Source of the DNA: Thermodesulfovibrio sp. 3462-1 | GTDB lineage: Bacteria; Nitrospirota; Thermodesulfovibrionia; Thermodesulfovibrionales; Thermodesulfovibrionaceae | NCBI RefSeq assembly: GCF_040451425.1 | Contig: NZ_CP144374.1 | Location: 868,001-932,000 of the forward strand | Length of the DNA stretch: 64,000 nucleotides | Direction: 5' to 3' | Part shown: in pieces, positions 29,259 through 43,935 of the stretch | Layout of the letters: every line of letters begins with the position of its first letter | How positions within the stretch are numbered: the stretch's first letter is position 1 | Translations under genes and position numbers: made by a program | The notes under the pieces: generated by a model | Databases searched by the model: none | Told to the model about the DNA's origin: nothing | What the model saw: only the letters and a program-made list of their open reading frames with translations

Positions 29259-30046
29259 AAGAGTATCTTACTGTTGCAATAGAAGCTGCCCAGAAAGCAG
29301 GAAATATTATTAAAGAAAGAATTGGGACAATCAAAGACAATGAAGTCACTCAAAAAAGTATATCAGATTATGTAACAGAAGTAGATGTTTTATCAGAAAA
29401 GACAATAATTGCTCACATTAAAAAGCACTTTCCAACTCATCAGATAATGTCTGAAGAGTCATCAAATGACTATAAAAAGGCAGAATATCTATGGATAATT
29501 GATCCTCTTGATGGAACAACAAATTTTATTCATGCTTTCCCTGTTTTTGCCATATCTATTGCTTTGATGTATAAAGGCGAGCTTGTTTTAGGAGTTGTTC
29601 ATGATCCAACAAGAGGTGAGACCTTTTATGCTGAAGCTGGCAGTGGTGCTTTTTTAAATGAAGAAAAAATAAGAGTATCCACACTGAGTTTACCAGAAAT
29701 GAGCCTTATTGCAACTGGTTTTCCGTTCAGAAACAAACAATTCATTCCAAGTTATGTAAAAATATTTCAATCACTTCTTTACTCTGTCAGTGATCTAAGA
29801 AGAGCTGGTGCTGCAGCAATTGATCTTGCCTATGTCGCATGCGGAAGAGTGGATGGATTCTTTGAATTTGCTTTAAGTCCCTGGGACATTGCAGCAGGTA
29901 TAGTTTTAATAAAACAAGCAGGCGGAGTGGTATCAGATTTTGATGGAGAAGAAAAATATTTAAAAACAGGACATATCATAGCAGGCAATCCTGTAATTCA
30001 TTCTTTCTTAGTGAAAAAAATAAGAGAAGTTTTATCAAGTAAATAA
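29255..30046 (+). CDS. Inositol monophosphatase family protein
   Basis: A 263-residue Mg-dependent sugar or inositol phosphatase. Metal ligands are in MSEESSND (~residue 69), IIDPLDGTTNFIHAFP (~85-100) and SPWDIAAG (~210). In thermophiles members may also hydrolyse fructose-1,6-bisphosphate; this is noteworthy because the dedicated FBPase gene in this window is frameshifted, but the sequence alone does not show such activity. The start overlaps the nitroreductase stop (ATGA). The 3' end overlaps thiE tail to tail by 12 bases. Confidence 0.92.
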   Translation: MKEYLTVAIEAAQKAGNIIKERIGTIKDNEVTQKSISDYVTEVDVLSEKTIIAHIKKHFPTHQIMSEESSNDYKKAEYLWIIDPLDGTTNFIHAFPVFAISIALMYKGELVLGVVHDPTRGETFYAEAGSGAFLNEEKIRVSTLSLPEMSLIATGFPFRNKQFIPSYVKIFQSLLYSVSDLRRAGAAAIDLAYVACGRVDGFFEFALSPWDIAAGIVLIKQAGGVVSDFDGEEKYLKTGHIIAGNPVIHSFLVKKIREVLSSK

Positions 30047-31199: not shown

Positions 31200-31850
31200 A
31201 TGCAAATATTTTTAGACACAGCAGAAATTGAAGCAATAAGAAGATGGGCAGTTACAGGAGTGGTTGATGGAGTTACAACAAATCCTACTTTGTTAGCCAA
31301 GGCAGGAGCTAAGGATGTAAAAAGCGTTATAAAAGAAATATCAAGCCTTGTGCGTGAACCTGTAAGCGTTGAAGTAATATCAACAGATGCTGAAGGAATG
31401 ATAAGAGAAGCTCGTGAGTATGCTTCATGGGGATTTAATATTGCAGTTAAAATTCCTATGACAGAACAAGGAATGAAAGCTGTAAATGTTCTTTCAAAGG
31501 AAGGAATTAAAACAAATGTTACCCTTATTTTCTCAACAAATCAAGGAATTATTGCAGCAAAAGCTGGAGCTACTTATGTAAGTCCTTTTATTGGAAGGCT
31601 TGATGACATTTCTCATGATGGATTAACTATTGTTCGAGAATTGGCAGAAATATTCAGAATTTATAATTTTACAACAAAGATAATTGCTGCAAGCATTCGT
31701 CATCCAATTCATGTCGTAGAAAGTGCTCTTGCTGGTGCTCATATTGCTACCATTCCGCCAAAGGTTCTTGAAAGCATGTTTAAACATCCGCTTACAGATA
31801 TAGGTATTGAAAGATTTTTAAAAGACTGGGAAAGTCTTCATAAAAAATAA
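31200..31850 (+). CDS. tal: Transaldolase (fructose-6-phosphate aldolase/small transaldolase type)
   Basis: A 216-residue TIM-barrel Schiff-base enzyme of the short transaldolase subfamily. It moves a dihydroxyacetone unit between fructose 6-phosphate and erythrose 4-phosphate. The N terminus [11 protein letters not shown], the [11 protein letters not shown] segment, the catalytic lysine (Lys84) in [10 protein letters not shown], and SPFIGRLDD are typical. The open frame is intact. It is the first gene of the operon, behind the sigma-54 promoter, with AAAGGAGG upstream. In the transaldolase form of the Calvin cycle it replaces sedoheptulose bisphosphatase chemistry; without carbon fixation it still serves the non-oxidative pentose-phosphate pathway. 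Confidence 0.93.
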
Positions 31851-31866
31851 AAAGGAGGAAAGAGAA

Positions 31867-33150
31867 ATGAAGATGAAGTATATTGATTTTTTAGAAATTG
31901 GATACATTCCAAGAGAAAGTGATGTTTTAGCTGCATTTTATGTAGAGCCAGCAGAAGATGTAACTGTAGAAGAAGCAGCAGGAGCTGTTGCTTCAGAAAG
32001 TTCAATTGGCACCTGGACAGACCTTGCAACTATGAAACAAAGCATATGGGACGAATTAAGAGCAAAAGTTTATGCAATAGAGGACAATGTTGTGTATATA
32101 GCTTATCCTGAGGCACTTTTTGAACCAAGCAATATCCCTCAATTTTTAAGCAGCATTGCAGGAAATGTTTTTGGAATGAAAGCAGTTAAGGCTTTAAGAC
32201 TACTTGACATACGGGTAACTTCAATTTTTACAAAACATCTTCCAGGTCCTGCTTTTGGAGTTAGTGGCGTAAGAGATGTTTTAAATGTAAAGCACAGACC
32301 ACTTATTGGCACAATTGTGAAACCAAAACTCGGGCTTTCACCGAAAGAGCAGGCAGAAGTTGTATACAACTCTCTTGCTGGAGGACTTGATCTTGTAAAG
32401 GATGATGAAAATCTTACACATCAAGTTTTTTCAAACTTTGAAGAAAGAGTTTTACGGTGTCTTGAAGCAGTGCAAAAAGCAGAAAAGGAAACAGGAGAGA
32501 AAAAGGCTTATTTGCCCAATATCACTGCTCCTACTGAGGAAATGCTGAGAAGGGCTCAGTTTGTGAAAAACAATGGTGGAACCTATGTAATGGTTGATAT
32601 TGTTACAGCAGGATTTTCAGGACTGCAAGCTGTAAGGAATGCTAATTTAGGACTAATAATTCATGCTCACAGAGCAATGTATGCAAGTTTTGCGCGTCCT
32701 AAGAATCATGGAATTCACATGCTTGTTTTAGCAAAGCTTTCAAGGCTTGCAGGAGTTGACCAACTTCATATCGGAACAGTGGTAGGAAAAATGGAAGGTG
32801 ACAAAGCTGATGTAATGGTCTGCCATGAAGCTTTAGGAAACTCTGAACACACTCTTAATGCTCCTTTACCTCCTCAAAGTTGGTGAAATATAAAACCTGT
32901 TTTTTCAGTTGCTTCTGGAGGACCTCATCCTGGCCATGTTCCTGATCTTGTCAGTATATTTGGAATTGAGGCTGTGCTTCAGTTTGGTGGAGGAGTTCAT
33001 GGACATCCTGATGGAACTCGCTCAGGAGCAAAAGCTATAAGGGATGCTGCTGAGGCAGCAGTTCAAGGTAAAACTCTGGAAGAAGCAGCAAAGAAAAGTA
33101 AAGAACTGGCAAGAGCCTTAGAAAAATGGAAAGGGGTGGTAATAAAATGA
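31867..33150 (+). pseudogene. rbcL: Form III-type RuBisCO large subunit, interrupted by an in-frame TGA
   Basis: A 427-codon RuBisCO frame. Codon 340 (32884-32886) is TGA, and the frame then stays open for 87 codons to the true stop at 33150. Active-site residues look complete before the stop: Lys152 in VKPKLGL, the carbamylated lysine in LVKDDE (178-181), His268/Arg269 in HAHRAMY and Lys308 in VVGKMEG. After it come [11 protein letters not shown] and [11 protein letters not shown]. The residue replaced by TGA is probably the Gly that usually follows this Trp (GGA to TGA). GGPHPG has Pro where the family has Leu, a possible second lesion. A 339-residue product would lack the C-terminal phosphate-binding loops. 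Archaeal-like form III is my assignment from length and motifs. The stop overlaps the prk start. Confidence 0.9.
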
Positions 33151-33989
33151 AGCCAGTTTTAGTAGGAATTGCAGGAGACAGTGGAAGCGGAAAAAGTACA
33201 TTTGTTAAAACTCTGGCTAATTTGTTAGGAGAAAAAGAAGTAAGAGAAATATGCTTTGATGATTATCACTCCTTAGACAGATAAGAAAGAAAAGCTGTAA
33301 AGATAACCCCGCTTCATCCTCGGGCGAACAATCTTGGGCTGGCTATAGAACATATGTGGCATCTTAAACAAGGTAAAAAAATTTTAAAACCTGTATATGA
33401 TCACTCAACTGGAAAATTTGGGGAGACTGAATGGGTATTTCCTGTTCCCTACATAATATGTGAAGGATTGCATACATTTTACTTTAGTGTGCTTGCTGTG
33501 ATCTATGATTTAAAAATTTACTATGACACTGATCTTGAACTAAAAATAATATGGAAAATTCAAAGAGATGTTGTAGAAAGAGGATATTTTGCTGAAAAAG
33601 TAATAGAAGAGATAAGAGAAAGGCAAAAAGACATAAGAAACTTTGTTGAACCTCAGTCTCAATATGCTGACATTTTAATAAAGCTAAAACTGCATTCTAA
33701 TAATTCTATAGCTGTACAGTGGAATGATTCTATAGATGCTCAATGGTTCAAAAAAATTTTAAATGACCCTGATTCCTGGAATGCTGTAACAGAATGGTAT
33801 GGAGGCAAAAAATGGAATGTTTATGAGATAGCTCGACCATTTACAATCGATGAAGCAAAGAAAATATTTAAAATTGATAGTTCTTTCAAAATAAAAGAAA
33901 AAGAGCTTGAACCATATATGCTTGCAGCTGTTTTAGTTGCAAGCATACTTAAACAAATAAGAAATTTGAAAAACGAAAAGGAGGTGTAA
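33147..33989 (+). pseudogene. prk: Phosphoribulokinase, interrupted by an in-frame TAA
   Basis: The frame starts with [18 protein letters not shown] (P-loop at residues 10-18) and continues EICFDDYHSLDR, then TAA at codon 46 (33282-33284), then ERKAVKITPLHPRANN in the same frame to the stop at 33989. Relatives have LDRK at this point, so an AAA-to-TAA change is likely. The rest is recognisable PRK: KPVYDHSTG, CEGLHTFY (relatives usually have EGLHP) and KIQRDVVERGY. The enzyme would make ribulose 1,5-bisphosphate for RuBisCO. The C-terminal part could only be made by internal re-initiation and would lack the P-loop. The ATG overlaps the rbcL stop (ATGA). Confidence 0.9.
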
Positions 33990-33991
33990 AA

Positions 33992-34840
33992 ATGTTTGAA
34001 ACATTTGAATTAGTTTCAAATTACACAGAATTACAATCAGTAGCTTCAAGAATAAGAAAAAACATAATTGAGATGATTGCTAAGGCAGGCAGTGGACATC
34101 CTGGAGGAAGTCTTTCCTGCGTTGAGATTTTAACAACTCTTTATTTTAAAGTTTTAAGACTTAATCCAGAGTATCCAGAAGACATGGACAGAGATAGATT
34201 CATCCTTTCAAAAGGACATGCTGCACCTGCACTTTATGCAACCTTAGCTGAATTTGGTTTTATTCCAAAAGACTGGCTTCATAGTTTAAGAAAATTTGGA
34301 TCTCCACTTCAGGGACATCCTGATATGAAAAAGGTTCCAGGAATTGAAATATCTACAGGCTCTCTTGGTCAAGGTCTTTCAGTAGGAGTTGGAATGGCTT
34401 TAGGTGCAAAAATTCAAAAACTTGGATATCGTGTTTTTGTCCTTTTAGGAGATGGAGAATGTCAAGAAGGTCAGGTTTGGGAAGCTGCAATGGCTGCATC
34501 GCATTACAAACTTAACAACTTAATTGCAATCATTGACAGAAATAGACTTCAAATTGATGGAAATACAGAAGAGGTTATGTCCTTAGAGCCATTTGTTGAA
34601 AAATGGAAAGCCTTTGGCTGGATGACACTTGAAATAAACGGACATGATTTTGGTGAAATAATTCCGGCATTCCAGATAATTCCATATATATCAAAACCTC
34701 TTGCAATAGTGGCAAATACTGTTAAAGGTAAAGGAGTCTCATTTATGGAAAACAATGTTGACTGGCATGGTAAAGCTCCTAAGGCTGAGGAGGCTGAAGA
34801 GGCTCTTAAAGAACTCCAAGGAGTTTATGAGTTAGTGTAA
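33992..34840 (+). CDS. tktA: Transketolase, N-terminal (TPP-binding) subunit
   Basis: A 282-residue subunit of a split transketolase. TPP/metal-binding signatures are GSGHPGGSLSCVEILTTLYF (~residue 32), STGSLGQGLSVGVGMALG (~122) and LGDGECQEGQVWEAAM (~151), followed by IAIIDRNRLQIDG. It transfers two-carbon ketol units between sugar phosphates in the Calvin and pentose-phosphate pathways. The split into two genes is normal in archaea and many bacteria and is not damage. It has a Shine-Dalgarno (AAAGGAGGTG) and starts 2 bases after the prk stop. The frame is intact. Confidence 0.93.
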   Translation: MFETFELVSNYTELQSVASRIRKNIIEMIAKAGSGHPGGSLSCVEILTTLYFKVLRLNPEYPEDMDRDRFILSKGHAAPALYATLAEFGFIPKDWLHSLRKFGSPLQGHPDMKKVPGIEISTGSLGQGLSVGVGMALGAKIQKLGYRVFVLLGDGECQEGQVWEAAMAASHYKLNNLIAIIDRNRLQIDGNTEEVMSLEPFVEKWKAFGWMTLEINGHDFGEIIPAFQIIPYISKPLAIVANTVKGKGVSFMENNVDWHGKAPKAEEAEEALKELQGVYELV

Positions 34841-34852
34841 GGAGGTAAAAAA

Positions 34853-35794
34853 ATGCAAAAGAAAATAGCTACAAGACAGGCTTATGGTTCAGCTCTTGTG
34901 GATCTGGGCAAAAGCAACCCAAATGTTGTTGTATTGGATGCTGATTTATCAAAGTCAACATATACAGTAAAGTTTGCAAAAGAGTTTCCTGAAAGATTTT
35001 TCAATGCAGGAGTTGCAGAAGCAAATATGATGGGAATGGCAGCAGGTCTTGCTACGTGTGGATTTATAGTGTTTGCCTCCACTTTTGCTATATTTGCAAC
35101 TCAAAGGGCTTTAAACCAGATATTTCAAAGCATTGCATATCCTGAACTGAATGTGAAAATTGCTGCAAGTCATGCAGGAGTGACAGTTGGTGAAGATGGA
35201 GCAAGCCATCAATCTATTGATGATATATCCATAATGAGAGCAATTCCAGGAATGACTGTAATAGTTCCTGCAGACAGCACAGAAGCTTATCAAGCAACAA
35301 TTGCAGCAGCAAGACATTTTGGTCCTGTATATTTAAGACTTAGCAGAGCTCCAACTCCGCAGGTTCTACCTGAAGACTATATATTTAAAATTGGGAAAGC
35401 TTATGTATTAACAGAAGGTTCAGATGTAACTATAGTAGCCTGTGGAACAATGGTGTATGAAGCTATGGTAGCTCGAGAGAAGCTTAATTCTCATGGCATC
35501 ACTGCTGAAGTCATTAATATGAGCACAATAAAACCAATTGACAAAGAAACACTATTAAATTCTGTCAAAAAAACAGGATGTGTTGTAACAGTAGAAGAAC
35601 ACAGCATAATAGGCGGACTTGGTAGTGCAGTATGTGAGGTACTCTCTGAGGAGTATCCATGTCCTGTAAAAAAGATTGGAATTAAAGATCATTTTGGTCA
35701 GTCAGGAAAACCTGAAGAACTTCTTAAACATTATGGTCTTACCTCTGATGATATTGTTAATGGTGTAATAACTTTAAAAGGAGGTAGCCTATGA
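34853..35794 (+). CDS. tktB: Transketolase, C-terminal subunit
   Basis: A 313-residue partner of the preceding gene, holding the pyrimidine-binding and C-terminal domains. Signatures are ATRQAYGSALVDLGKSNPNV, FFNAGVAEANMMGMAAGLA (the catalytic Glu in GVAEANM, ~residue 55), SHAGVTVGEDGASHQSIDD (~102) and VTVEEHSIIGGLGSAVCE (~242). The frame is intact. GGAGG precedes the ATG, and its stop overlaps the gap start (ATGA). With the N-terminal subunit, transaldolase, RpiB and Rpe it completes a non-oxidative pentose-phosphate pathway. Confidence 0.93.
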   Translation: MQKKIATRQAYGSALVDLGKSNPNVVVLDADLSKSTYTVKFAKEFPERFFNAGVAEANMMGMAAGLATCGFIVFASTFAIFATQRALNQIFQSIAYPELNVKIAASHAGVTVGEDGASHQSIDDISIMRAIPGMTVIVPADSTEAYQATIAAARHFGPVYLRLSRAPTPQVLPEDYIFKIGKAYVLTEGSDVTIVACGTMVYEAMVAREKLNSHGITAEVINMSTIKPIDKETLLNSVKKTGCVVTVEEHSIIGGLGSAVCEVLSEEYPCPVKKIGIKDHFGQSGKPEELLKHYGLTSDDIVNGVITLKGGSL

Positions 35795-36271
35795 GGGTTG
35801 CTATAAATGGTTTTGGAAGAATAGGAAGATTGGTAACAAGAATCCTTTTTAATGAAAATCCTGAAAATGTTGATTTAGTTGCTATTAACAGTTCAAAAAA
35901 CACTGAGATGCTTAGCTATCTTCTTAAACATGACTCGGTATATGGAGAATTTAACAATAAAGAAATTTCCTATGACTCTGACCATTTATTGGTAGATGGC
36001 AAAAAAATTAAAATTATTGAGGAAAGACAGGATTTAACAAAGCTTCCGTGGAAAGAACTTGAAATTGACCTTGTTGTTGAGGCTACAGGAAAATTTAAGA
36101 AAAAAGAGGACTCCTACAAACACATTGAAGCAGGGGCTAAAAGAGTTTTAATTACAGCTCCAAGCGCTGAATCAGACATAATGGTTGTTTATGGAGTAAA
36201 TCATGCTGAAATAAAGCCGGAACATAAAATTATTTCAGCTGCCTCTTGCACAACAAACTGTACAGCTCCTA
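35791..36271 (+). pseudogene. gap: Glyceraldehyde-3-phosphate dehydrogenase, 3' half deleted
   Basis: The first 160 codons are normal GAPDH: NAD-binding INGFGRIGRLV, HDSVYGEF, VVEATGKF and the catalytic-cysteine motif SCTTNCTAP (Cys153). Homology stops exactly after this Ala-Pro. The next bases belong to pgk in another frame and the GAPDH frame ends at a TGA at 36298-36300 after ten unrelated residues. About 175 codons, including the whole catalytic domain after the cysteine, are missing. The product cannot be active. The ATG overlaps the tktB stop. Whether another gap gene exists elsewhere cannot be seen here. Confidence 0.92.
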
Positions 36272-37183
36272 ATTCACTTTGTTCCTTCATGAGGAGATGA
36301 AGTTAAAGATACTCTAAAATTGCTAAAAGATGGAGAAATTTTGCTTTTACAAAATTTAAGATTTCATCCTGGAGAAACAAGCAATGATGAAGAGTTTGCA
36401 AAGTTTTTAGCTTCACTGGCAGATATATATGTTTTTGAAGCATTTGGAACTGCTCATAGAAAGCATGCCAGTGTAGTTTCTTTACCTAAATTTTTACCTT
36501 CAATGATTGGATTTTTAACTGAAAAGGAGATAAATACCATAAATGGATTAATAGAGCAAGCAAAAAAACCTTTTTTGTTTATTTTAGGAGGGAAAAAAAT
36601 ATCTGACAAAATAAGAGTTTTTGAAAGACTTCTTGACAAAGCTCAGATAATTTGTATTGGTGGAGCAATGGCTTGTACGTTTTTTAAAGCATTGGGATAC
36701 CAGGTAGGAAAATCTTTTTATGAAGAAGACTCCTTAGATGTAGCAAGAGCAATAATGAAAAAAGCAGAACAGAGGGGATGCAAACTTCTGCTTCCACAGG
36801 ATGTTATGGTTGCAAAAACAATCAGCGACAATACAGAAACAAAGTATGTTTCTCGAGAAGAAATTCCTGAAGACTATCAAGTAGTTGATATAGGTCCAAA
36901 AACATTTGAAATTTATAAAAAGGAAATAAACTCTGCAAATACAATTTTATGGAACGGACCTATGGGAATTTATGAAATTCCTAAATTTTCATGGGGATCA
37001 AAAAGTATAGCCTTAACAATTGGCATGTCTAAAGCAATAAAAATATGCGGAGGAGGAGACACTGCTGAAGTTTTAAATTCTTCAAATTTAATTTCCCATT
37101 TTGATCATATTTCAACTGGAGGTGGAGCTTTTTTAAAGTTTTTAGAGGGTTCTTCATTGCCTGCACTTGAAGCAATTTCTTGA
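36272..37183 (+). pseudogene. pgk: Phosphoglycerate kinase, 5' end deleted
   Basis: Homology resumes at 36272 in the pgk frame as IHFVPS, then TGA (36290-36292), then GDEVKDTLKLLKDG. PGK proteins usually have two residues (such as Cys-Ile) between that segment and GDEV, so a 3-base loss turning TGT-ATA into TGA is plausible. The remaining ~296 codons are well conserved: LLLQNLRFHPGE, AFGTAHRKHASVV, FILGGKKISDK, GGGDTAEVL and HISTGGGAFLKFLEG. The first ~90 residues, including the substrate-binding loops, are gone. The lesion is the other side of the deletion that truncates gap. An internal TTG at 36320 could start a useless fragment. Confidence 0.9.
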
Positions 37184-37204
37184 TATTGAATAAAGGAGGC
37201 TGCT

Positions 37205-37651
37205 ATGAAAATAGCAATGGCAACAGATCATGCAGCATTTTCTTTAAAAGAAAGAATAAAGCATTATCTTAATAACTTAGAACATGAAGTAATTGATTTT
37301 GGATGTTACAGTGAAGAATCGGCTGATTATCCTTTGTTTATTTCAAAGGCTGCTCGGGCAGTAGCTAATGGACAATGTGAAAGAGGAATTGTAATGTGTG
37401 GTTCAGGGATAGGAGCTTCAATTGTAGCAAACAAAATAAAAGGAATAAGATGTGCTTTGGTTTATACTCCAGAGCTTTGTAGACTTGCAAGACAGCACAA
37501 CGATGCAAATATTATTGCTCTTGCAGGAAGATTTACTGAAGAAGATACAGCAAAAAGAATTGTTGATGTTTTTCTTTTGACTAAATTTGAAGGAGGAAGG
37601 CATTTAGGAAGAGTTAATCAAATAATAGAAATTGAGGAGGGCAGGCTATGA
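37205..37651 (+). CDS. rpiB: Ribose-5-phosphate isomerase B
   Basis: A 148-residue RpiB/LacAB-type isomerase interconverting ribose 5-phosphate and ribulose 5-phosphate. N-terminal MKIAMATDHAAFSLKE, SADYPLFISKAA, the active-site loop GIVMCGSGIGASIVANK (Cys ~residue 66) and RQHNDANIIALAGR are all present. The frame is intact. AAAGGAGG precedes the ATG, and its last codons overlap the aldolase start (ATGA). It serves both the Calvin cycle and ribose supply for nucleotides, which may explain its survival in a decaying operon. Confidence 0.94.
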   Translation: MKIAMATDHAAFSLKERIKHYLNNLEHEVIDFGCYSEESADYPLFISKAARAVANGQCERGIVMCGSGIGASIVANKIKGIRCALVYTPELCRLARQHNDANIIALAGRFTEEDTAKRIVDVFLLTKFEGGRHLGRVNQIIEIEEGRL

Positions 37652-38952
37652 AAGATTTAATTGCTCAAAATATTGAAGAGCTTGATTTTAATGATGTAGA
37701 CAATTTAATCTGGAGTGCTGTATTTTCATCTAAGGAAGAAACCAGAAACAAAGCCAAAGAAATGATATTTCTTAAAGGGCTTCAACATAGAGTGGTTCCT
37801 TCATCAATTCAAAATTTTTATGATGCAATGGGAAGAGGTGAACTCCACAGCATTACTGTTCCTGCTGTGAATATAAGAGGACTTACCTATTACGCAGCAA
37901 GAGCTATTTTTAGATCAGCGATGAAAAACAATGTAGGTTTGATTATATTTGAAATTGCTCGTTCAGAGATTGGTTATACATATCAAAGTCCTTCAGAATA
38001 TACTGCTAATATTATAGCTGCAGCTTTGCGGGAAGGATTTTACTATCCAATTTTTCTACAAGGAGATCATTTTCAGGTCAACAAGAAAAATTTTGAAAAA
38101 AATCATAAAGAAGAGATTGATACCCTTAAAAATTTAATAAAAGAATCGATAAATGCTGGTTTTTTTAACATAGATATATATGCCTCTACAATGGTTGATT
38201 ATTCAAAGAAAACTTTAAAGGAACAACAAAAAGAAAACTTTACTCTTACAGCTATGTTTACAGACTATATAAGAGTGTTGCAGCCAGATGGAATAACAGT
38301 TAGTGTTGGAGGAGAAATAGGTCATATTGGTGGTAAAAATTCTACAGTTGAAGAATTTGAGGCTTTTATGGAAGGTTATTTGAAAACTTTGAATTCTCAA
38401 AAAGGTATCTCAAAAATTAGTGTTCAAACAGGAACAGCTCATGGAGGAATTCCTTTAAAAGACGGAACTCTGGCTCAAGTTAAATTGGATTTTAATGTTT
38501 TAAAATCAATTGGTAGTTTAGCTCAGGAAAAATATGGATTAAGTGGAGCTGTTCAACATGGAGCATCTACTTTACCAATGGAATTATTTGATAAATTTCC
38601 TGAATCTTATACTTCTGAAATTCATCTTGCCACAGGATTTCAAAACACAATGTATGATTTAGCACCAGATTGGTTAAAGAAAGAAATTTATCAATACCTT
38701 CAAGAAAAATGTAAAGAAGAATGGAAACAGGACATGACATATGAGCAGTTCATATACAAAACAAGAAAAAAAGGATTTGGTCCCTTTAAAAAACAGTGGT
38801 GGAGTCTTCCAGAAGATATAAAAAACGCAATAATGGACGAACTTTCAAAAACTTTTGATGTAATATTTGAAAAACTTCGTGTTAAAGATTCAATACAGCT
38901 TGTTAATAAATATATAAATCCTGTAAATGTAAGTTTAAAATTTTTGCAGTAG
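37648..38952 (+). CDS. fba: Class II fructose-bisphosphate aldolase-type protein
   Basis: A 434-residue zinc-dependent aldolase of the long form. Metal and substrate signatures are VPAVNIRGLTYYAARAIF (~residue 73), FLQGDHFQV (~135, catalytic Asp/His), GGEIGHIGGKNSTVEE (~230), VQTGTAHGG (~260) and GAVQHGASTLP (~310, His as zinc ligand). It condenses dihydroxyacetone phosphate with an aldehyde phosphate, giving fructose 1,6-bisphosphate or sedoheptulose 1,7-bisphosphate. The C-terminal ~90 residues are extra compared with E. coli FbaA. The frame is intact, with GAGGAGG upstream. It overlaps rpiB by 4 bases. Confidence 0.87.
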   Translation: MKDLIAQNIEELDFNDVDNLIWSAVFSSKEETRNKAKEMIFLKGLQHRVVPSSIQNFYDAMGRGELHSITVPAVNIRGLTYYAARAIFRSAMKNNVGLIIFEIARSEIGYTYQSPSEYTANIIAAALREGFYYPIFLQGDHFQVNKKNFEKNHKEEIDTLKNLIKESINAGFFNIDIYASTMVDYSKKTLKEQQKENFTLTAMFTDYIRVLQPDGITVSVGGEIGHIGGKNSTVEEFEAFMEGYLKTLNSQKGISKISVQTGTAHGGIPLKDGTLAQVKLDFNVLKSIGSLAQEKYGLSGAVQHGASTLPMELFDKFPESYTSEIHLATGFQNTMYDLAPDWLKKEIYQYLQEKCKEEWKQDMTYEQFIYKTRKKGFGPFKKQWWSLPEDIKNAIMDELSKTFDVIFEKLRVKDSIQLVNKYINPVNVSLKFLQ

Positions 38953-38963
38953 GAGGTTAAAAA

Positions 38964-39927
38964 ATGGAAATAAAAAAAAGGCATAGATTTAAACAGATTT
39001 ATTCTTGAACAAGAAAGAAAACATCCAGAAGCAACTGGCACACTTTCTCATGCTTTAATGGCTATAGAAAATGCAACAAAAATTATTTCTTCATATATAA
39101 GAATGGCTGGACTTGTTGATGTAATTGGCAAAACAGGAAGAATAAATGTGCAGGGTGAAGAAGTTCAAAAATTAGATACCTTGTCAAATAGAGTTCTTGT
39201 AGAACATCTAAGTGGAAGTGGCGATTTTTATGCTGTAGCAAGTGAAGAAATGGAAAATGCTTTATTTCCTGAAGAAGGTAAGGAGGGCAAATATATTATA
39301 GCAGTAGACCCCCTTGATGGTTCTTCTGTAATTGATGCTAATACATCTGTGGGAACAATATTTTCAATCTGGAGAAAAACTTCTTCTGATGAATCAACAT
39401 TTTTACAAGAAGGAAAAAAAATAGTAGCTGCTGGATATGTTATCTATGGAACATCAACCATGCTTGTTTATTCAACCGGAAATGGAGTCTATGGATTTAC
39501 TCTTGATCCAATGGTGGGTACATATTTGCTTTCTCATCCAAATATAAAAATTCCTGACAAAGGCAAGATCTATGGATTTAATGAATCCTATTACAACAAA
39601 TGGGAAGAAAAAATTAGAAAATGCGTAGATTACTTTAAATCAGAAGGATATACTCTTAGGTGGGCTGGAGCAATGGTTACAGATATACACAGAACAATTA
39701 TGAAAGGCGGAATATTTGCCTATCCAATGGTAGGTTCAAAGGCAAAAATAAGACTTCTTTATGAAGCAGCTCCTATGGCTTTTTTAGTTAAACAGGCAGG
39801 TGGATTAGCAACCGATGGAACTGAAAATATTTTAGATATTAAACCCCAGGCTCTACATCAAAGAGTGCCTGTATTTATGGGTAGCCCGGAAGATGTGAAA
39901 AAATGCATGGAGATAATGAACAGATAA
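38964..39927 (+). pseudogene. fbp: Class I fructose-1,6-bisphosphatase, +1 frameshift in an A8 tract
   Basis: A normal start (AGGAGG then ATG at 38964) reads MEIKK and then meets eight A (38972-38979). Seven A would continue as GIDLNRFILEQERKHPEATG in the frame of the remaining gene; eight A shift the frame to a TGA at 39006. Downstream FBPase sequence is complete and conserved: ASEEMEN, VDPLDGSSVIDANTSVGT (metal-binding), TDIHRTIMKGGIFAYP and PMAFLVKQAGG to the stop at 39927. An internal ATG (39058) could start a product lacking the first ~31 residues, including part of the AMP-site/N-terminal helix. Transcriptional slippage on A8 could restore some full-length protein, so this is the mildest lesion in the operon. 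Confidence 0.88.
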
Positions 39928-39928
39928 A

Positions 39929-41201
39929 ATGAGAAAAACAAAGATTGTAGCCACTATAGGGCCCTCATCAGATAAAAAAGAAATAATCTCTCAAATGATT
40001 CAGGCTGGAATGGATGTGGTAAGGCTTAATTTTTCTCATGGAGATCATTTTTACTATGCTCAGGTCATAAAAACGATAAGGGAAGAATCAAATAAGCTTG
40101 GGAAAGCAGTTGCAATATTGCAGGATCTTCAGGGTAGCAAACTAAGAATAAACAACATAAATGGAAAAGAAATTGAACTTACTGAAGGTGAAGAAATAGA
40201 AATGTGATCTGGTGATGGTGTGTCTACTTCAAAAACTCTTTTTGTCCCGTATAAAGATTTGATTTATGAAGTCAAAGAAGGTGATGAAGTCCTGATTGAT
40301 GATGGATTAATAATACTTAAAGTAACTAAAAAACTCAATGACAAAATTTTTGCAATAGTAAAAGAAGGCGGAACTCTTAAACCTAAAAAAGGAATCAGTT
40401 TCCCTAACTTAAATGCAACTTTGAGTTTTACTGACAAAGACAAAGCTGATCTTTTATTTGGCATTAATCTTGATGTAGATTATGTTGCTGTTTCGTTTGT
40501 AAAAAACAAAAATGACTTACTTTTGATAAAACAGTGGGCAAATGAAGAGGGCTTGTTACTTCGGTGTTTCTCTCCCAATTCATGAAGTTCCTGTATATCA
40601 AAAAAAATTAATAGAACTTGCAAATCAGAAGTGTAAAATTGTTATAACCGCAACCCAAATGCTTGAATCAATGAGACAACATTCAAGACCAACCCGTGCT
40701 GAAGCAACTGATGTTGCAAATGCAGTTCTTGATGGAGCAGATGCTTTGATGCTTTCTGCAGAAACAGCAACTGGCAAATATCCAGTAGATGCAGTTAAAA
40801 CAATGAGTTCAATCATAAAATTTACGGAAGAAAATTTATCTCACAGAATTCCTGTTCTTTATAAGGTTGGAAGTTCTTTTTCTGAAGCAATAGCTTCTGG
40901 AGCCGTTGAAGTTGCTCAAGACATCAATGCAAAAGCAATAGTTGTTTTTACAGAGTTTGCATCAACCACAAAAGTGCTTTCAAAATTGCGTCCATCAATG
41001 CCGGTGATTGCTTTTAGTATAAAAGAAAAAACATACAGAAAATTATCTCTTTTTTGGGGGATAATTCCTATGTGGAACAAAAATTTTTCTCTAGAAGAGA
41101 TTGAAAAAACTCTCAAAAATTTAGGTATTGCCAGCAGTTCTGATAAAATAGTAATTGTATCTGGACAGTCAAATACTATAAAATTACACAGAATAGGATG
41201 A
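39929..41201 (+). pseudogene. pyk: Pyruvate kinase, in-frame TGA plus internal deletion
   Basis: The frame starts MRKTKIVATIGPSSDKKE and includes GMDVVRLNFSHGD. Codon 93 (40205-40207) is TGA, after which the frame continues SGDGVSTSKTLF. A second break lies near 40550-40562: KQWANEEG is joined out of frame to FGVSLPIHEVPVYQ. The ~40 residues usually between these (the catalytic Lys/Glu of the AKIE segment and the ARGDL metal site) are missing. The remainder (VITATQMLESM, RPTRAEATDVANAVLDGADALMLS, C-terminal allosteric domain) is conserved to 41201. The enzyme is certainly inactive. Its end overlaps the next gene by 4 bases. Confidence 0.9.
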
Positions 41202-42199
41202 AAGCTATGAAAACACTTGTAAGTATAATAGGAGCTGGTCCAGCAGGACTGGCAACAGCTGTAGAACTAAAGGCAAAAGGAATTGAAGACTTAATTATTT
41301 TTGAAAAAGGCGGAGATATATGTTCAACAATAAGAAAGCTTTATCCTCCACAGAAAAGAGTGGATAAAGTTTTCAAAGGATTACAACTTCAGGCTCAGGG
41401 GATATGTGATTTTCAGACGGAGACAAAAGAAGCTTTTCTTGAGAGAATGCGTAAATATGTAAAAGATTATGAAATTAAAATTAAATTTAATACAAGAATT
41501 GACGGATTAGAAAAACTCAATGATTTTTATGCAATAAAACATGAAAACTTAATAGTGGCTAAGAGTTACATAGTAATATTAGCTATAGGAGTATTTGATA
41601 CTCCTCGAAAGCCTTCTTATCCCATTCCTGAAGAAGTAAAAGATAAAGTATTTTTCAGACTTCCAAAAGAGTTTCCTCAAAATGAAAAAATACTCATTGT
41701 AGGAGGAGGGAACTCAGCAGTAGAGACTGCTTGTGCTCTTTCTGACAGTTGTGAAGTCTTTCTTTCTTACAGAAGAGAAAAACTTTTTCGGGTCAATGAA
41801 GAAAATCTTAAAGAGCTTGAAAAACGACAGAACAAAATTCGTCTTATCCTGGGAAGCGACATTGAGAAACTGGAGCCTGCAAATCAACAAGTTAAAGTAG
41901 TATTTAAAGATGGCTCTGAAGCGATTTTTTCAAAAATTTTTTATTGCCTTGGTGGTAGTGCACCAAAAGATTTTCTTCAAAAAATAGGGATAGAACTCGT
42001 TAATGGAAAACCTAAAATTGACGAATTTGGAGAAAGCAATCTCCAAAGAGTCTTTTTAGTTGGTGATATAGCCACGGAGCGTGGAAGTATTATGTTCGCT
42101 TTTAATTCAGCTTATAAAGTAGTTAAAAGAATTATAGAAAAATACTCAATTAAGGAGGACTGCGGTGGTACTCATAGCACCATCAATTCTTTCAGCTGA
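41198..42199 (+). CDS. YpdA/thioredoxin-reductase-like FAD-NAD(P) oxidoreductase
   Basis: A 333-residue two-dinucleotide-binding flavoprotein. The FAD motif is IIGAGPAGLATAVE near residue 10 and the NAD(P) motif is ILIVGGGNSAVETACALS near 165; VFLVGDIATERGSI (~285) is the second FAD contact. There is no CxxC redox pair, so it is not a classical thioredoxin reductase; it resembles YpdA-type or ferredoxin/flavodoxin-NADP reductases. The start may be the ATG at 41198 (overlapping the pyk stop) or at 41207, which has AGGA 8 bases upstream. The frame is intact. It lies between pyk and rpe, and its last 35 bases overlap the rpe gene. Confidence 0.8.
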   Translation: MKAMKTLVSIIGAGPAGLATAVELKAKGIEDLIIFEKGGDICSTIRKLYPPQKRVDKVFKGLQLQAQGICDFQTETKEAFLERMRKYVKDYEIKIKFNTRIDGLEKLNDFYAIKHENLIVAKSYIVILAIGVFDTPRKPSYPIPEEVKDKVFFRLPKEFPQNEKILIVGGGNSAVETACALSDSCEVFLSYRREKLFRVNEENLKELEKRQNKIRLILGSDIEKLEPANQQVKVVFKDGSEAIFSKIFYCLGGSAPKDFLQKIGIELVNGKPKIDEFGESNLQRVFLVGDIATERGSIMFAFNSAYKVVKRIIEKYSIKEDCGGTHSTINSFS

Positions 42200-42821
42200 T
42201 TTTGGAAGATTGGATGAAGAGATTAAGCTTGCCGAGGAGGCTGGCGTAGATATGATTCATATTGATGTAATGGATGGTCATTTTGTTCCGAATATTACGA
42301 TTGGTCCTTTAGTAGTGGAAGCTGCAAGAAAGGCAACAAATCTTCCTCTGGATGTTCATCTAATGATTACAAATCCTGAAAAATATATATCAGACTTTGT
42401 AAAAGCTGGTGCTCAGTATCTTACAGTTCATGTTGAGGCTTGTGTGCATCTGCACAGAACAGTCTGGCAAATAAAAGAACAAGGCATAAAAGCAGGAGTT
42501 TCACTAAATCCTGCAACATCTTTAACTACAGTAGAGGAGATACTTCAAGATATTGATTTACTATTAATAATGTCAGTTAATCCAGGATTTGGAGGACAAA
42601 ATTTTATACCTTTTTGCATAGATAAAATAAAGAAAGCTAAATCAATGATTCTAAACAAATTTTCCAATGCATTAGTTGAAGTAGACGGTGGAGTAAAGCT
42701 TGAAAATGCCCGTGAAATTACTGAAGCAGGAGCTGACATCCTTGTAATGGGTTCAGCTTTTTTTGGTGAAAAAAATTATAAAGAATTTATGGAAAAACTC
42801 AAAAAAACACTATCAATTTAA
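42165..42821 (+). CDS. rpe: Ribulose-phosphate 3-epimerase
   Basis: A 218-residue TIM-barrel epimerase interconverting ribulose 5-phosphate and xylulose 5-phosphate. Signatures include IAPSILSADFGRLDEEI, the metal-site HIDVMDGHFVPNITIGP (~residue 32), DVHLMITNPEKYI, GVSLNPATS, MSVNPGFGGQNF (~138) and EVDGGVKLENA (~172). It starts with GTG at 42165, supported by AAGGAGG about 7 bases upstream, and overlaps the reductase gene by 35 bases. It is the last gene of the operon and is intact. A weak hairpin follows. Confidence 0.95.
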   Translation: MVLIAPSILSADFGRLDEEIKLAEEAGVDMIHIDVMDGHFVPNITIGPLVVEAARKATNLPLDVHLMITNPEKYISDFVKAGAQYLTVHVEACVHLHRTVWQIKEQGIKAGVSLNPATSLTTVEEILQDIDLLLIMSVNPGFGGQNFIPFCIDKIKKAKSMILNKFSNALVEVDGGVKLENAREITEAGADILVMGSAFFGEKNYKEFMEKLKKTLSI

Positions 42822-42856
42822 CTTAACCCCCTTTTAAACTGCCTCTGAAATTAATG

Positions 42857-42873
42857 GAGAGGGAATTGCTCTC
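42857..42873 (+). terminator. Weak hairpin after the Calvin-cycle operon
   Basis: A 5-bp stem GAGAG / CTCTC with a 7-base loop, followed by TAATGCTAAAAATTT. No T-run follows, so termination here is only a suggestion. The 139-base gap between rpe and the convergent rluD holds nothing else I can name. Confidence 0.25.
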
Positions 42874-42960
42874 TAATGCTAAAAATTTATAACTCTGCGG
42901 AAAAATTAAGCAAATTTTTGCTATCCTAATTCTAATCGTTACTGCCTATAAAATTTACAC

Positions 42961-43935
42961 TTAGTTTTTTAAACCTTTGTTAAAAACCTTAGGAGGTTTA
43001 ACTGATAAAGTCAGAATTTCTATGATTTTTTCCATGTCTTCTGGTAAAGATGATTCAAATTTAAGATGTTGTCCTGTGACTGGATGATTAAATTCAATCC
43101 TCCATGCATGAAGCATCTGCCGTAAAACAGGAATTTTTTGTTTGCCAAGTTCTATATATGTTTTTTTTCCATAGGTTCTGTCGCCTATTACTGGATGCCC
43201 AATTGCTGAAAAATGAACTCTTATTTGATGGGTTCTTCCAGTAATAATCTTTACCTTTACAAGAGTGTAATTTTTAAAATTCTTGATTACTTCCCATTCA
43301 GTTATTGCCTCTTTTGATTTTTTTGCTCTTGTGGACATCTTTTTTCTGTCATAAATTGCTCTTCCAATTGGCAGTGTAATTCTACCACTACCTTTTAATT
43401 CTCCATAAACAAGAGCAATATATTCTTTATTGACCTGCCTTTTTTTAAAGGCTTCTACCAATCCATAATACGCGTTATTATCAATAGCAATTACAATTAC
43501 CCCTGAGGTGTCTTTATCAAGCCTGTGAACTACTCCTGGTCTTAGAGGAGCTCCAGCAGTGGCAAGTTTTTTTACATGATAGGCTAAAGCATTCAAAAGA
43601 CTTCCATCTCTGTGACCCGCACAGGGATAAACTACCATATTCGCAGGTTTTGAGAGCACAACTAAGTGTTCATCTTTGTAAATTATTTCAATTGGAATAT
43701 TTTGCGGAATTAATAATTTATTTTCTTCACTCTCAGATGAAAATCCGTCAAAAATTTCAACTAAATCATTAAGTTTTAGTTTATAACTTTTTGATTTAAA
43801 AAAATTATTAACCTTAACATATTTATTTTCAATCATTCCCTGTGCTTTTGCTCTGCTGAGATTCAATTTTTCAGAGAGGAAAACATCAAGTCTTTTGCCT
43901 TCCTGGGTATTGTCAATTTTTAAAATAAGGCTCAT
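42961..43935 (-). CDS. rluD: RluD-family 23S rRNA pseudouridine synthase
   Basis: A 324-residue RluA/RluD-type enzyme. An N-terminal S4 RNA-binding domain (residues ~10-70, GKRLDVFLSEKLNLSRAKAQ) is followed by the catalytic domain with VHRLDKDTSGVIV (the catalytic Asp, ~residue 140), KEYIALVYGEL, TGRTHQIRVHFSAIGHPVIGD and the C-terminal LHAWRIEFNHP. Members isomerise specific uridines in 23S rRNA helix 69 or similar sites; exact specificity is inferred only. It overlaps the uvrA stop by 4 bases. Confidence 0.92.
   Translation of the reverse strand: MSLILKIDNTQEGKRLDVFLSEKLNLSRAKAQGMIENKYVKVNNFFKSKSYKLKLNDLVEIFDGFSSESEENKLLIPQNIPIEIIYKDEHLVVLSKPANMVVYPCAGHRDGSLLNALAYHVKKLATAGAPLRPGVVHRLDKDTSGVIVIAIDNNAYYGLVEAFKKRQVNKEYIALVYGELKGSGRITLPIGRAIYDRKKMSTRAKKSKEAITEWEVIKNFKNYTLVKVKIITGRTHQIRVHFSAIGHPVIGDRTYGKKTYIELGKQKIPVLRQMLHAWRIEFNHPVTGQHLKFESSLPEDMEKIIEILTLSVKPPKVFNKGLKN

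Follow-up and report, generated by a model that had tools for sequence, protein, structure and literature searches.

Deletion scar between gap and pgk in a probably decayed Calvin cycle operon of Thermodesulfovibrio sp. 3462-1

Gene content of the locus

The window analyzed here, a 64,000-nucleotide stretch of the Thermodesulfovibrio sp. 3462-1 genome (contig NZ_CP144374.1, positions 868,001 to 932,000 of the forward strand), contains an operon-like run of 13 genes on the same strand at 31200-42821: tal, rbcL, prk, tktA, tktB, gap, pgk, rpiB, fba, fbp, pyk, a thioredoxin-reductase-like gene and rpe (Table 1). Six of these genes (rbcL, prk, gap, pgk, fbp and pyk) carry disabling changes, with at least seven lesions in the cluster. 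As the remaining seven genes are open, some of the operon may still be in use. Promoter and terminator scans returned no more than was found in shuffled sequence. We also observed a weak, below cut-off match to the FBPase family at 29345-29545 (G000:C1:897345-897545). The gene that holds it is 263 aa long, lies immediately before the operon and probably encodes an inositol-phosphatase-family protein.

Table 1. Coordinates of operon genes and lesions in the window
Feature	Coordinates	Strand	Evidence or remark
tal, fructose-6-phosphate aldolase/transaldolase, TalC type, intact, operon gene 1	31200..31850	+	PF00923; G012 orthologue 94% identical, TIGR00875
rbcL pseudogene, form III RuBisCO	31867..33150	+	in-frame TGA at 32884 (codon 340 of 427)
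prk pseudogene, phosphoribulokinase	33126..33989	+	in-frame TAA at 33282 (codon 53)
tktA, transketolase N-terminal subunit, intact	33992..34840	+	PF00456
tktB, transketolase C-terminal subunit, intact	34853..35794	+	PF02779/PF02780
gap 5' remnant, residues 1-160 of type I GAPDH	35791..36270	+	PF00044 only; no PF02800 match there
deletion junction	36270..36271	.	799 bp of G012 missing; ends without common repeat
pgk 3' remnant, residue 92 onward	36271..37183	+	PF00162 positions 76/101-378
TGA nonsense codon, pgk frame (G012: TGG, Trp97)	36290..36292	+	G012 alignment
rpiB, intact	37205..37651	+	PF02502
fba, class II aldolase family, intact	37648..38952	+	PF01116
fbp, class I fructose-bisphosphatase, +1 frameshift	38964..39927	+	A8 run at 38972-38979, A7 in G012; G012 orthologue NF006778
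pyk pseudogene, pyruvate kinase	39929..41201	+	TGA at 40205 (codon 93); 98-bp deletion at 40562/40563
thioredoxin-reductase-like flavoprotein, intact	41207..42199	+	G012 orthologue comparison
rpe, ribulose-phosphate 3-epimerase, intact, last operon gene	42165..42821	+	TIGR01163 (G012 orthologue)

The only intact relative found, G012, carries the same operon unbroken and collinear, with DNA that is 86-87% identical. Its orthologues reveal the ancestral state of the two key genes: a form III RuBisCO large subunit (TIGR03326 rubisco_III, 566 bits against a cut-off of 497) and a phosphoribulokinase (NF005655, 250 bits against a cut-off of 236). A transaldolase also belongs to the cluster (PF00923 / TIGR00875). 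The window's own cluster would not amount to a functional form III, transaldolase-type operon of the Calvin-Benson-Bassham (CBB) cycle, since rbcL and prk carry nonsense codons. A genome-wide family search returned a single RuBisCO match in the window genome, and the nearest RuBisCO of other members of the order is only about 36% identical and comes without the operon proteins. A transketolase scan of named genomes, which possibly did not include the window genome's own records, found no close relative of the operon. Downstream of rpe, G012 carries an ORF of 252 aa (L027 2018-2776) that matches no NCBIfam family and is absent from the window at 42822-43042, a length difference of about 0.65 kb.

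The gap-pgk junction

The preliminary description of this DNA, made from the letters alone, had the GAPDH homology stopping at 36270 and PGK homology beginning at 36272 in a different frame, and alignment to G012 bears out both positions. The GAPDH homology corresponds to residues 1-159 of the 333 aa in G012, and the PGK homology, which runs from 36272 to 37180, corresponds to residues 92-394 of 397 aa. At the matching site G012 has full-length gap and pgk genes, is 799 bp longer and is collinear on both flanks; this is the intact relative, longer by roughly 0.8 kb, that the description had proposed as a check. When every possible cut point was scored, the best join fell at 36270/36271, which agrees with the earlier placement. 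The loss amounts to about 174 GAPDH and 91 PGK codons, close to the 175 and 90 estimated previously from usual protein lengths. These data support a single deletion, as first proposed, that removed the last half of gap together with the first quarter of pgk.

Beyond the join, the gap frame continues for 9 codons to a stop at 36298-36300. The gap remnant retains the NAD-binding domain and the catalytic Cys motif (SCTTNC) and has lost the C-terminal domain. The pgk remnant is missing its first 91 residues, the 3-phosphoglycerate-binding N-terminal part, and a 1-bp insertion relative to G012 near 37180 changes its final residues. Judging from the missing parts, we infer that neither remnant would give a working enzyme. 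The TGA in the PGK frame at 36290 was correctly noted before, but its suggested origin, the loss of three bases from a Cys-Ile pair, is ruled out because the alignment to G012 has no gap there. G012 reads TCA TGG GGT with no difference in length, so the TGA is a nonsense substitution at Trp97 of PGK.

A short repeat at both ends of the deletion, raised earlier as a possible clue to mechanism, was not found. With G012, about 14% diverged, standing proxy for the ancestral join sequence, the two ends of the 799 bp had no 7-mer in common within 60 bp and did not match in register at the cut. The divergence of G012 could mask one or two bases of microhomology at the join, but a longer repeat should show. 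The deletion may thus have arisen by illegitimate joining or by a replication error without a repeat.

Lesions across the operon

In rbcL, which is 92.5% identical to the G012 copy, a single TGA cuts away the end of the catalytic domain. The change in prk is CAA to TAA, and the ORF left over is without the N-terminal P-loop part. RuBisCO and PRK, the diagnostic enzymes of the Calvin cycle (31867-33989), have one nonsense codon each and are complete apart from that, so the pathway may still be reported as present by automatic annotation. In pyk, the TGA is accompanied by the 98-bp deletion, which breaks the frame. Here a search for a deletion-associated repeat gave common 7-mers only because the search windows overlapped, and this candidate was rejected. 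The fbp frameshift sits just past the start codon, and a downstream ATG at 39058 could yet yield a protein of 289 aa. In this stretch (38964-38979) the A8 run, as against A7 in G012, may be a real lesion, a homopolymer sequencing error or a slippage site.

We compared about 50 kb of the window gene by gene with G012 (46 G012 genes). Across this region, about 31 flanking genes had no internal stop, frameshift or truncation; their N-terminal differences are read as start-codon choice. Every one of the five genes that carry stops or deletions lies among the 13 operon genes of 44 tested (hypergeometric p=0.0012), and adding fbp would raise the count of lesion-bearing genes to six.

Redundancy and timing of decay

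Elsewhere in the genome lies an intact second gap-pgk pair (C1:244785-246501, with pgk at C1:244785 scoring 544.6 bits and gap at C1:246031), and family searches identified further copies of pyk, tkt and rpiB outside the operon. Relatives in the genus without RuBisCO likewise encode pyk, rpiB and tkt of their own elsewhere. Class I FBPase alone has no second copy scoring above cut-off in the window genome. Because other copies of most enzymes exist, most of the operon is a dedicated extra set that is likely dispensable for heterotrophic growth. With housekeeping versions of gap, pgk, pyk, tkt and rpiB still intact, losing the operon should cost the cell autotrophy, not glycolysis.

The pooled dN/dS was 0.092 for the broken operon genes (95% bootstrap 0.076-0.111), and 0.116 for the intact ones (0.098-0.137). 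Flanking genes gave 0.125, from a pooled dN of 0.068 and dS of 0.541. Since the broken genes have no excess of dN/dS, decay looks recent when set against the divergence of the two species (dS about 0.6). The neutral fraction of the path derived from these ratios was not above zero, with a 97.5% bound of about 0.2% of the path, a rough figure because genes differ in constraint.

Origin of the lesions

We are highly confident that a single 799-bp deletion left its scar here, knocking out both gap and pgk of a dedicated CBB operon of the form III RuBisCO, transaldolase type, whose pathway decayed after a turn to heterotrophy. In this scenario the cell would have become heterotrophic, selection on the carbon-fixation pathway would then have ended, and lesions would have gathered recently across the operon, the 799-bp deletion among them by illegitimate joining that no repeat mediated. 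The gap-pgk deletion is, on this comparison, best seen as part of the decay of the whole Calvin cycle operon. Errors of assembly or sequencing could in principle have produced both deletion and stops in an operon that is really intact; the lesions are read from the assembled sequence, which may hold an error at any one site, and the A8 run in fbp is a classic error site. However, the genome is a single contig with 99.98% completeness, and the lesions are varied (GGA to TGA, CAA to TAA, TGG to TGA, TTG to TGA, and deletions of 98 and 799 bp) and cluster in one pathway with none in about 31 neighboring genes, which makes such an artefact very improbable. It is harder still to credit functional remodelling, either as a useful GAPDH-PGK fusion or through readthrough of recoded TGA codons. 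Bifunctional PGK fusions do exist (PGK-TPI, NF010569) and TGA accounts for three of the four nonsense codons, but the reading frame changes across the join and a TGA comes within 20 bases of it, which rules out an in-frame fusion enzyme; such a protein would also combine a GAPDH without its C-terminal catalytic domain and a PGK without its substrate-binding N-terminus. Recoding is ruled out in turn, as prk is interrupted by TAA and two of the lesions are deletions, including the frame-breaking one in pyk; moreover, the flanking genes contain no internal TGA.

A refinement of the decay scenario, which we regard as unlikely, is that the genome shed RuBisCO, PRK, gap, pgk and pyk almost at once while selection for a non-autotrophic role kept tal, tktAB, rpiB, fba and rpe. 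The retained genes are open with dN/dS of about 0.06-0.24, and the genome is without a second class I FBPase. Yet the values are equally low in the broken genes and therefore reflect the time before decay, not current selection; in addition, second copies of tkt and rpiB are present, and fbp itself is frameshifted. If such trimming had occurred, a Calvin operon would have become a non-autotrophic pentose-phosphate cassette. The locus offers a clean, base-resolved snapshot of carbon fixation lost very recently: an intact sister operon is there to compare it with, and six genes are broken by separate lesions although their codons still look selected. With more strains, the order and timing of the loss of autotrophy could be tested.

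Comparison with known systems

A Calvin cycle with form III RuBisCO has been reported for Thermodesulfovibrio (PMC12501866, citing Frolov 2019 PNAS and Maltseva 2024). With form III rbcL, prk, a TalC-type transaldolase, transketolase, gap, pgk, fba, fbp, rpe and rpiB, the window operon resembles the Frolov 2019 PNAS system as cited there, but both key enzymes and four further ones are disrupted. T. obliviosus "has lost this ability", namely autotrophy, in the words of the title of Maltseva et al. 2024 (Syst Appl Microbiol 47:126561), as cited in PMC12501866. T. autotrophicus and T. obliviosus are sister species, one an autotroph using the form III RuBisCO Calvin cycle and the other, by that title, a species that lost autotrophy; according to PMC12501866, both are without nif. 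The pair resembles G012 and the window genome; nifH is absent from these two and present in the genus relative G002, a pattern that agrees with what PMC12501866 gives for T. obliviosus, T. autotrophicus and T. yellowstonii. With its decayed CBB operon and absent nifH, the window genome is consistent with T. obliviosus, and on the strength of the cited title, the organism's loss of autotrophy has very probably been published already. As in ordinary metabolic pseudogenes after lost selection, the nonsense, frameshift and deletion lesions of the window are confined to one dispensable pathway. We find no notable difference from such pseudogenes: the gap-pgk deletion pseudogene is ordinary pathway decay, caught at an early stage in which the remnants are nearly undiverged.
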